Assembly (NCBI GenBank): GCA_017453125.1
Contig: JAFTKS010000019.1
Span: 1 to 64,000 of the forward strand
From: Clostridia bacterium
GTDB taxonomy: Bacteria; Bacillota; Clostridia; Christensenellales; UBA1242
Reading direction: 5' to 3'
DNA: 64,000 bases
Made by a program: the position numbers and the translations under genes. The notes under the pieces were generated by a model. The model did not search any database and was not told the origin of the DNA. It saw nothing but the letters and a program-made list of their open reading frames with translations. This document shows, one piece after another, positions 33,263 through 61,932 of the stretch. Position 1 is the stretch's first letter. Each line of letters starts with the position of its first letter.

Positions 33263-33418
33263 ATGGCAAGTAGAAAATGTGATTGTACAACCAGAAAGTC
33301 AGCTTCAACTAGTAGAAAGTCTTCTAGTAGAAAAGCTGAGGCTAGTACAGATAATGCAAAAACTTCTAGTAGAACTTCAGCAAAGCAAACTTCTAGTAGA
33401 ACAAGAAATTGTAACTAA
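33263..33418 (+). CDS. Ser/Thr/Arg/Lys-rich protamine-like 51-residue peptide
   Basis: The ATG follows an exact AGGAGGTG, one of the strongest ribosome sites in the window, so I take the gene as real. The peptide contains almost only Ser, Thr, Arg, Lys and Ala, with repeated SSR and TSSR units (TSRKSSSRK, TSSRTSAKQTSSRTR). It has no hydrophobic segment, and has Cys near both ends (RKCDC and RNCN). This composition resembles protamines and spore-coat or spore-core basic proteins. A nucleic-acid-binding or spore role is inference. It lies just upstream of the tRNA-Val/Gly pair. Confidence 0.65.
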   Translation: MASRKCDCTTRKSASTSRKSSSRKAEASTDNAKTSSRTSAKQTSSRTRNCN

Positions 33419-33697: not shown

Positions 33698-33772
33698 GCG
33701 GGAGTGGCTCAGTGGTAGAGCGTCGCCTTGCCAAGGCGAATGTCGCGAGTTCGAATCTCGTCTTCCGCTCCA
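33698..33772 (+). tRNA. tRNA-Gly (anticodon GCC)
   Basis: The 75-nt gene folds as a full cloverleaf. Acceptor GCGGGAG pairs with CTTCCGC (one G-U), the anticodon stem-loop is GCCTTGCCAAGGC, the T arm is GCGAGTTCGAATCTCGT, and CCA is encoded. Its 3' end is the founder of the tandem array that follows directly. Confidence 0.97.
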
Positions 33773-34297
33773 ATCTAAGACCTCGTGTGAGGTCTTTTTT
33801 TTTCGCTTAATGACGAGATTCTATAGACTAACGTCTATATATCTACGATATGAACTCGCTAATTCGCGTGTGCTCGTTTTTACAAAACGAGGGCGATCGC
33901 AAGCTTTTGATAAAATCTTGCTCGGCAACGAACACGTCTTCCGCTCCAATCTAAGACCTCGTGTGAGGTCTTTTTTTTCGCTTAATGACGAGATTCTATA
34001 GACTAACGTCTATATATCTACGATATGAACTCGTTAATTCGCGTGTACTCGTTTTTGCAAAACGAGGGCGTTCGCAAGCTTTTGATAAAATCTTGCTCGG
34101 CAACGAACACGTCTTCCGCTCCAATCTAAGACCTCGAATGAGGTCTTTTTTTTGCTTGATGACGAGATTCTATAGACTAACGTCTATATATCTACGATAT
34201 GAACTCGCTAATTCGCGTGTACTCGTTTTTGCAAAACGAGGGCGTTCGCAAGCTTTTGATAAAATCTCGCTCGGCGACGAACACGTCTTCCGCTCCA
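33773..34297 (+). repeat. Tandem array of three ~175-bp units carrying tRNA-Gly fragments
   Basis: The units span 33773-33948 (176 bp), 33949-34123 (175) and 34124-34297 (174) and are about 95% alike. Each starts with ATCTAAGACCTCG and a terminator hairpin (AGACCTC/GAGGTCT plus Ts). Next come GACGAGATTC, about 30 nt containing the hairpin TATAGAC-TAAC-GTCTATA, and GAACTCGC. A second hairpin CTCGTTTT/AAAACGAG follows, and the unit ends with a copy of the tRNA-Gly 3' end, CGTCTTCCGCTCCA. The two flanking pieces are exactly the two halves of the antisense tRNA-Gly T arm (GACGAGATTCGAACTCGC), split by the hairpin insert. A decayed fourth unit start follows at 34298. Confidence 0.93.
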
Positions 34298-35838: not shown

Positions 35839-35925
35839 GCTGGTGTGGCGAAATCGGCAGACGCACAGGACTTAAAATCCTGCGGTGTAACAACCGTACC
35901 AGTTCAAGTCTGGTCACCAGCACCA
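35839..35925 (+). tRNA. tRNA-Leu (anticodon TAA)
   Basis: The 87-nt class II tRNA: acceptor GCTGGTG pairs with CACCAGC, anticodon loop CTTAAAA, a variable arm (CGGTGTAACAACCG), T arm CCAGTTCAAGTCTGG, CCA encoded. Its 3' end is repeated in the array that follows. Confidence 0.97.
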
Positions 35926-36291
35926 AAAATGCGAACGATAAGTTCGCTTTTTTTGTTTCAGTGACCAGTATGTGCAACGCACATTTTTTTCTAACGAAAA
36001 AACTTGAACAGTATTCGTCGCATACCAGTACAAGTACTTATGCTCCGAAATTACTCATTTTATTCGTAAGGCAAGTCGTGGTCACCAGCACCAAAATGCG
36101 AACGATAAGTTCTCTTTTTTTGTTTCAGTGACCAGTATGTGCAACGCACATTTTTTTTAACAAAAAACTTGAACAGTATTCGTCGCATACCAGTACAAGC
36201 ACTTATGCTCCGAAATTACTCATTTTATTCGTAAGGCAAGTCGTGGTCATCAGCACCAAAAATGCGAACGATAAGTTCGCTTTTTTTGTTT
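35926..36291 (+). repeat. Tandem array of two ~167-bp units plus a partial one, carrying tRNA-Leu fragments
   Basis: The units span 35926-36093 (168 bp) and 36094-36258 (165 bp); a third copy of the first 33 bp (terminator) ends near 36291. Each unit starts with the terminator GCGAAC-GATAA-GTTCGC and Ts. GTGACCAG follows, then a 34-nt insert with hairpin ATGTGC-AAC-GCACAT and Ts, then CTTGAAC, a T-arm-like TACCAGTACAAGTAC, and finally a copy of the tRNA-Leu 3' end (TGGTCACCAGCACCA; last unit TGGTCATCAGCACCA). GTGACCAG and CTTGAAC are the two parts of the antisense tRNA-Leu T arm. The layout matches the tRNA-Gly array although the sequences are unrelated. Confidence 0.93.
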
Positions 36292-59992: not shown

Positions 59993-61932
59993 TTAGTACC
60001 ATCAACAAAAACATAACAATCTTGAGAAGTTGAATTACCATACAAGTAATAAACTTTATTATTTATGGTACAAATAGAGCCATAAAAAATAGAACTAGCG
60101 TTATTTAAATTAACTTTAACCCAAGTTTCAGTTTCTTTATCTAACATATAATTTAAATCTTTTTTATTAGAAGAAAGATAGATATTATCACCGTCTGACC
60201 ATAATACAGTACCCATAGAAGAATTAACACCATTCCAAACTTTGGTATACCAAGTAAGTGTATTTTTATCTAATATATAATGGGTTTGTCCATTTGAATA
60301 ATAAGTATTTTCTCCATCTGACCAAATATGCGCAGCATTAATTGGAGTAAAACCATTAAACGTAACAACATTCCAAGTTCTAGTAGATTTATCTAAAATA
60401 TATTGATTAGAATTTAGAGATAAATAATAATTTTCCCCATCTGACCATACATAACCAGCCCTAAAAGAACTTACGCCATAAAAAGTAACTTCGTTCCAAG
60501 TATCAGTAGATTTATCTAAAATATATTGTTTTGAGTTATTAGAATAAAAAACATTATCTCCGTCAGACCATATATACAAACCAATTATATAAGAATACCC
60601 ATACCATTGTTTTTGTTTCCAAGTATTAGTTTCTTTATCTAAATAATAATTTACTTCTCCATTAGAAAAATAATCAATTCCGTCATAATTCCAAAAAGAA
60701 TTATAACTAATACCATTTTCAAACTTTGGTAAACCAACAAATTCGGTTGCTATATCAACTTGATAAAAACCATATTGTAACTCAAATATAGCATAAAAAT
60801 TTGTATTATTATTTATAGAATAAGAAGATAAATCAATAACATTTACACCGTCAACAGACCAACCAATAAAATCATAACCCGATTTAGTTGGAATAGTTGG
60901 AACAACTACATAATTATCATTAACAACAAATTGAGAATTATAAATTTCATTATCTACAACAAAATTAACTAAATATTTATTCGTTACATCTGCAACAATT
61001 TTAACATTTGAAGTAATTTGATATGTATTTAAATCAATTTGTTCACCGTTTACAGTCCAGTAGTTAAAGATTACATAATCAGTAGAAGTTGGATTTACAA
61101 CAGATACTGTATCATTTTTATTTACAATTTGAATATTGTAAACACTACCGTCAAATTCAAAAGTTACAACAACTTGATTATCGTTTTCAAAATTAGCAAT
61201 AAATTCTTCATAATAAGAAATAGAAGATTGAAGTTCTGCAATTTTATTGTTTAAAATAGAAACATTTGAAGAATTAGCAGATACTTGTGTAGTTAAAATA
61301 GAAATTTGATAATTTAAACTATCAATTTGAATATTTAAATCTTCTATAATGCTATTATATAAATTATTTGTATTATTCAGTTGAGTAATAGTACTCTGTA
61401 AATCAGTAATTTGATAAGAATAATTTTCAATAAGTTTATCTTTATATTCAATCACTAAACCACTATTTGTAACAGTATTTTCCAAATTAACAATCTGTGT
61501 ATTTAAATTAGAAATTTGTTTATTTAAATTAGATATTGTATTTTCATTATTTGTTTTAATAGTAGATAAATTATCTACTTGTTCTTCTAAACTAACTTTT
61601 TGATTTTCTAAATTAGTAATTTGTTGTGTATAATCTTTATTACTATTAGTTAATAATGTAACTTGACTATTAAGTTGACTAATTTGATCAGTTTGAGCAG
61701 TTATAGTATCTCTATAACTATCAATTAATTCAGTATAAGATTTTTCATTATCTAGTGCAGTAGAATAGCCGTCTTTATAAGCATTATCAACGTCATCTTT
61801 AGTATATACACCAGTTCCAGATAATCCGTCTTGTACTTTGTTAAAGTTAATAATACCCCAAGACAAAACGAAAGCAAAAGCACCAATAAATAAAATACTA
61901 AATATTATACTTAATACTTTTTTTGTTTCCAT
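59989..61932 (-). CDS. Virion tip/adhesin-like protein: coiled-coil stalk, two InlB-type repeats, six-blade propeller-like domain
   Basis: The 647-residue protein has an N-terminal membrane span (about 7-28). A coiled coil (about 60-250) consists almost entirely of repeated Ile/Leu/Asn/Gln heptads with SQLNSQV and NKQISNLNTQI. Two Listeria-Bacteroides repeats follow (about 254-316 and 321-383; each ends with a WTVNG or WSVDG then ANV/YAIF-type strand). Six repeats of about 42 residues (about 410-647) then have the core WSDG(E/D)NxYxS…YxLDKxTxTW, resembling Kelch-type blades. This fits an attachment protein in the place of pIII. AAGGAGAAATT precedes the ATG. Binding to a host surface target is inferred. 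Confidence 0.72.
   Translation of the reverse strand: METKKVLSIIFSILFIGAFAFVLSWGIINFNKVQDGLSGTGVYTKDDVDNAYKDGYSTALDNEKSYTELIDSYRDTITAQTDQISQLNSQVTLLTNSNKDYTQQITNLENQKVSLEEQVDNLSTIKTNNENTISNLNKQISNLNTQIVNLENTVTNSGLVIEYKDKLIENYSYQITDLQSTITQLNNTNNLYNSIIEDLNIQIDSLNYQISILTTQVSANSSNVSILNNKIAELQSSISYYEEFIANFENDNQVVVTFEFDGSVYNIQIVNKNDTVSVVNPTSTDYVIFNYWTVNGEQIDLNTYQITSNVKIVADVTNKYLVNFVVDNEIYNSQFVVNDNYVVVPTIPTKSGYDFIGWSVDGVNVIDLSSYSINNNTNFYAIFELQYGFYQVDIATEFVGLPKFENGISYNSFWNYDGIDYFSNGEVNYYLDKETNTWKQKQWYGYSYIIGLYIWSDGDNVFYSNNSKQYILDKSTDTWNEVTFYGVSSFRAGYVWSDGENYYLSLNSNQYILDKSTRTWNVVTFNGFTPINAAHIWSDGENTYYSNGQTHYILDKNTLTWYTKVWNGVNSSMGTVLWSDGDNIYLSSNKKDLNYMLDKETETWVKVNLNNASSIFYGSICTINNKVYYLYGNSTSQDCYVFVDGTK

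Follow-up and report, generated by a model that had tools for sequence, protein, structure and literature searches.

Integron cassette arrays (attC) consist of tandem units with imperfect hairpins, transfer RNA (tRNA)-targeted genomic islands and tycheposons carry partial tRNA copies that keep the gene whole, and IS110 elements possess a non-coding part whose bridge RNA contains split, guide-like segments that match the target. Each of these traits has a counterpart in the units described here, which form two tandem arrays in a 64-kb window, the whole stretch of Clostridia DNA that was analysed (positions 1 to 64,000 of contig JAFTKS010000019.1, assembly GCA_017453125.1; lineage Christensenellales, UBA1242). 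The arrays lie directly 3′ of tRNA-Gly(GCC) and tRNA-Leu(TAA), and their units are similar in size to the IS110 non-coding part. We rate repetitive extragenic palindromic (REP) elements as the nearest kind. Like the units, these and related miniature inverted-repeat transposable element (MITE)-type repeats, which include the GTAG and CGTC REPs and their REP-associated tyrosine transposases (RAYTs), are short, gene-less, palindromic and dispersed and act at the DNA level, as the units probably do; the GTAG and CGTC REPs are stem-loops of 20–40 bp (PMC3733652).

The arrays nevertheless differ from each of these systems. Unlike integron arrays, their units are near-identical within an array and gene-less, and every array corresponds to a single tRNA. 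Unlike genomic islands and tycheposons, they lack cargo and integrase, copy 5′ ends as well and contain an inverted tRNA arm; unlike IS110 elements, they have no coding sequence, and their two guide-like halves are complementary to the same strand, in a single order. Some cores do sit within dispersed palindromic repeats, yet the units are several times longer than REPs (98 to 323 nt among those listed; REP features from PMC3733652), nest at tRNA arms and, without a constant partner transposase, include the target arm in inverted form. We found no description of such arrays in the literature searched, with subscription papers outside its scope, and rate the kind of element as new. Below, we demonstrate the anatomy of the units, their recurrence at many tRNAs, the match to their own tRNA, the occurrence of cores in both orientations and tandem repetition. 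We interpret the units, with even credence, as gene-less palindromic DNA elements nesting on the outer flank of tRNA genes.

Anatomy of the Gly and Leu arrays

The Gly array comprises three units and the Leu array two, all on the + strand and 95–97% similar among tandem copies. Their order is a split T-arm antisense with an insert, a hairpin-rich core, a copy of the tRNA 3′ end and, as a rule, a terminator. The split antisense is present in all five units, as an initial annotation of the DNA had claimed for every unit.

The intact tRNA-Gly(GCC) spans 33698–33772. Its T arm, GCGAGTTCGAATCTCGTC (33745–33762), occurs a single time in the window, at 33745, and the tRNA is followed by a terminator at 33777–33796 that is copied in the units at 33953–33972 and 34128–34147. 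Each Gly unit contains GACGAGATTC, 30 nt and GAACTCG(C/T). On the + strand of the window, GACGAGATTC, complementary to the 3′ half of the T arm, is found exclusively at 33812, 33987 and 34161 (33812–33821, 33987–33996, 34161–34170), and GAACTCG, the counterpart of the 5′ half, exclusively at 33852, 34027 and 34201, where the next base is C, T and C, respectively (33852–33859, 34027–34034 with one change, 34201–34208). These occurrences reproduce exactly the Gly halves and the 30-nt gap, which is exact in unit 1, that had been proposed initially. A single hairpin had been placed between the halves; the insert instead consists of two in Gly and Leu units alike, which in Gly unit 1 occupy 33823–33838 and 33839–33851 (together 33823–33851). 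The class A core, GTGTGCTCG-hairpin-CGAGGGCGATCGC-hairpin-GCTCGGC, follows at 33868–33934, and the copy of the tRNA-Gly 3′ end at 33935–33948, with more copies from 34110 and 34284.

The Leu array is built likewise behind the intact tRNA-Leu(TAA) at 35839–35925, whose T-arm part GTTCAAGTCTGGTCAC lies at 35902–35917, and a terminator at 35931–35947 with a copy at 36264–36280. In each unit, GTGACCAG (35961–35968 and 36128–36135) and ACTTGAAC (36002–36009 and 36167–36174) stand on either side of the insert, which spans 35969–36001 in unit 1. Since an A precedes the CTTGAAC at 36003 and 36168, the halves complement the T arm without any missing base, which bears out the complementarity proposed initially. 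The core of unit 1 lies at 36010–36073 and the 3′-end copies at 36079–36093 and, with one change, 36244–36258.

A gene for a small Ser/Lys/Arg-rich protein adjoins the Gly array (33263–33418, +); in genome G004 of our collection, a similar gene is located close to the Gly array, on the opposite strand. Elsewhere in the window, a 123-bp tandem repeat lies in an open reading frame region at 60300–60583.

Recurrence of the units and match to their tRNAs

In the window genome (1.35 Mb, 37 tRNA matches), 35 tRNAs were read. For 10 of them (Arg-ACG, Asn, Gly, Ile, Leu-TAA, Lys-CTT, Met, Ser-CGA, Ser-TGA and Tyr), the tRNA's own 3′ end recurs downstream, separated from the gene by a unit. Upstream head copies occur at Ser-GGA and Ser-TGA. 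The reading covered most tRNAs in three more species of the genus; in others it covered Gly and Leu alone or a few tRNAs. Units are mostly 110–230 bp long, contain no genes and flank tRNAs that they leave whole; upstream units mirror the downstream ones, are based on the D or the anticodon arm and copy the leader and the tRNA 5′ end. Core classes differ at the same tRNA between sister species. The distribution is patchy, with many tRNAs lacking units and several sister species lacking them at Gly and Leu. Among upstream arrays, 66-bp units in 2.2 copies next to a tRNA-Gly (L009; G006, contig C8) contain a degenerate tRNA-Gly 5′ half including the anticodon loop, and a remnant next to a tRNA-Met(CAT) (L077) holds a tail copy, CCCCGCTACCA, from a tRNA that is no longer adjacent. 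One contig (L135; G009, C32) is unusually dense in tRNA genes and perhaps represents a mobile element.

For each unit, the best one- or two-piece antisense of its tRNA was scored, with every tRNA of the same genome that carries a different amino acid as comparison. The own tRNA ranked first in 28 of the 40 downstream units of the genus, where about 2.1 were expected, and we conclude that the antisense follows its tRNA. In a count made without prior choice of units, 42 of 140 tRNAs from four genomes of the genus scored at least 15 for own-arm antisense downstream, as against 1 of 140 when the same stretches were reversed. Related arrays whose antisense halves do not change with their tRNA, the contrary outcome considered in the initial annotation, were thus looked for and did not occur. 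Behind tRNAs of other Clostridia, 19 of 31 units with a class-D core ranked their own tRNA first (about 1.2 expected), two of the 31, L223 and L231, belonging to genomes already covered as G006 and G024.

The inverted arm also fits the intact tRNA better than the unit's own copy. Over 225 antisense positions in 27 units, the intact tRNA mismatched at 7 and the copy at 45, a comparison biased toward the tRNA by segments picked for their tRNA match; closing on the unit's own sense copy, also suggested initially, is accordingly the weaker pairing within that bias. In Gly units of three species, the own copy has drifted while the antisense is still identical to the tRNA. Duplication begins at the arm loop or close to it, around C56 in T-arm units, and extends outward beyond the terminator. 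Several class-D Leu units have a long anticodon-arm antisense in place of a T-arm antisense, and in Leu units of this type the duplicated tRNA part begins further 5′. By reading of the units, the antisense break falls at 54/55, 56/57 or 60/61.

Predicted folding, core classes and candidate enzymes

Folded as single-stranded DNA, T arm plus unit gave z scores of −7.37 (Gly) and −6.68 (Leu), with none of 200 shuffles as good. In these folds, the sense T arm pairs with the antisense halves, across all 18 bp in the minimum-energy Gly structure, while the terminator lies in the loop and the two hairpins stand opposite the T loop; RNA folding yields the same fold. According to these predictions, pairing between the antisense and the intact arm can create a multi-way junction. 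The 40 unit bodies contain 94 stems, compared with about 20 per mononucleotide shuffle. Beside 637 pairs, their stems have 4 GT/TG and 8 AC/CA mismatches, and the arm:antisense pairings have 5 GT/TG and 4 AC/CA mismatches beside 442 pairs. G·U is not in excess in either set, and we therefore see no sign of wobble pairing. Over all stems of the 40 bodies, the latter stem mismatches comprise 8 AC and 0 CA, and class C′ cores retain an A-C mismatch, G-T on the other strand, at one site of the last hairpin.

Several core classes occupy the same place in the units. A single core class was rejected as an account: the class-B pattern matched two genomes of the same genus and one other, the latter without an adjacent tRNA. 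Class A gave apparent chance matches in G080 and G088, while its backwards control matched several larger genomes. Class D is well conserved: its core was found in 67 stretches of genome records, mostly titled Clostridia, Christensenella or Oscillospiraceae; our tally holds 77 core matches at 68 loci, one of them viral. A same-strand tRNA lies just 5′ of the core in 34 of the 77 and an opposite-strand tRNA in 5, in two further groups of 7 and 2 the tRNA is 3′ of the core, and 29 matches have none within 450 bp. Some of these tRNA-less matches resemble degraded arrays or arrays ended by a contig edge, and several lie within dispersed palindromic repeats. At L183, L185, L226 and L244, such repeats (CAATCCCTCAGTCAC...CACAAGGGAGCC) belong to Oscillospiraceae-type genomes and once to a viral contig. 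Viral collections yielded no class-A and one class-D stretch; with a dispersed class-D stretch as query, phage records gave no match and plasmid records one, covering 20% of the query.

The class-D core lies in the sense strand downstream of some tRNAs; its reverse complement is found upstream of others and behind some tRNAs as well. At five loci (L184, L197, L210, L236 and L242), the core is inverted in an otherwise usual plan behind the tRNA. Every unit sits behind an intrinsic terminator. Cores that lie in either orientation, upstream of a tRNA or behind a terminator favour DNA as the relevant level, and the occurrence of the core in both orientations means that what is conserved cannot be a single sense RNA.

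No Rfam family except tRNA reached its gathering score; other matches were weak and sub-threshold. Tyrosine recombinases occur in 11 of the 13 genus genomes. In G000, the best match to this family (C8:64658–65197) is Xer-like in length with one in-frame TAA. The IS110 (DEDD) transposase was found in 0 of the 13 genomes, its control matching 4 of 14, and we rejected an IS110/bridge RNA origin because the transposase is absent from all 13.

Interpretation of the units

The plan of the units runs from an intact tRNA arm X through an outer flank F, an inverted X and a hairpin core of one of several classes to a second, partial X plus F. Here F is the tRNA end with its terminator or, for upstream units, the leader with the 5′ end, and two hairpins often interrupt the inverted X at its loop. 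If the units are DNA elements nesting at tRNA genes, a hairpin core would insert or accrete at a tRNA hairpin, duplicating the outer gene part and keeping the tRNA whole, with the inverted arm as either guide or scar of this event. The active form is probably DNA. Pairing between the inverted and the intact arm would expose a multi-way junction across from the loop at which the duplication begins; if strands break and join at this junction, units may be added or removed with the tRNA unharmed, and tandem copies may arise by unequal exchange. We favour units acting at the DNA level because cores occur in both orientations, units lie behind terminators and stems show no G·U bias. A strict splint model, in which the antisense would always break at the same point, was rejected, since the position of the break varies.

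Several observations weigh against this interpretation. Twelve of the 40 downstream genus units did not rank their own tRNA first (Tyr, Asn and Lys in G000; Leu-TAA, Thr-CGT, Ser-TGA and Ser-CGA in G012; Leu-CAA in G006; Thr-CGT in G007; Ser-CGA, Thr-CGT and Leu-CAG in G003), nor did 12 of the 31 class-D downstream units of other taxa, and the antisense of upstream units is weak, with 2 of 12 ranking first. The variable break is not what a strict splint model would predict, and selection for function, rather than a scar, could underlie the close match of the inverted arm. Searches for tyrosine recombinase, Y1 and IS110 in the 13 genus genomes linked no enzyme to the units. The Y1 transposase (Y1_Tnp) occurs in 5 of the 13 and is missing from the array carriers G003, G004 and G006, for which reason it was rejected as a constant partner. 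No excision, circle or pair of empty and filled sites was seen.

A more specific and tentative proposal, possible rather than probable in our view, is that these are self-guided DNA elements, in which the inverted copy of the target arm serves as a DNA guide that pairs with the intact arm, and a host recombinase resolves the resulting Holliday-like junction, with the two hairpins at the crossover, and so inserts, removes or multiplies units. Target choice would then be set by base pairing, without an RNA or a gene in the element.

Among the alternatives, we consider it unlikely that the arrays are attachment-site relics, i.e., that phage or island integrases acting at tRNA arms left tandem tRNA-end copies, with the inverted arm belonging to an attachment site. 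Integrase-driven integration is usually marked by copied tRNA ends, a direct copy is present at the far side of the units, and tyrosine recombinases are widespread in the genus (the 11 genomes above). The units, however, carry no integrase and, at no more than 323 nt for those listed, offer no room for one; upstream units copy 5′ ends, and integrase attachment sites are not known to include an inverted arm matched to the tRNA. Similarly improbable is a replication accident, in which template switching at tRNA hairpins produced direct-inverted-direct copies that decayed with neither mobility nor function. Tandem-inversion-duplication events do give the order of direct arm, inverted arm and direct partial arm, and the 95–97% similarity of tandem units fits such an origin, but accident alone would not lead one to expect conserved cores common to different tRNAs and taxa, nor the exactness of the inverted arm.

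The action of a trailer RNA on the tRNA, proposed in the initial annotation, found no support and appears quite unlikely. Terminator read-through would produce an RNA that binds, through its split antisense, the T arm of the precursor or mature tRNA and controls folding, processing or modification; the antisense does fit its own tRNA and the fold also forms as RNA, yet the core is reversed in upstream and some downstream units, terminators precede the units, G·U pairs are not favoured and versions with an anticodon-arm antisense occur. A host-beneficial structure, with cruciforms guarding the outer edges of tRNA operons as, e.g., integrase decoys or fork or transcription barriers, is equally doubtful. 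In its favour, units flank tRNAs that stay intact and their inverted arm tracks the tRNA; against it, the distribution is patchy, with no units beside numerous tRNAs or, at Gly and Leu, in several sister species.

If the units are indeed gene-less DNA elements nesting at tRNA genes, a clade of uncultured gut Clostridia would harbour, at its tRNA genes, elements that carry sequence copied from, and complementary to, their target, and target choice by DNA self-complementarity would become testable. Such arrays would also account for occasional assembly breaks at tRNA genes of these genomes. If the inverted arm is a scar alone, the arrays would instead record how tRNA hairpins reshape replication.
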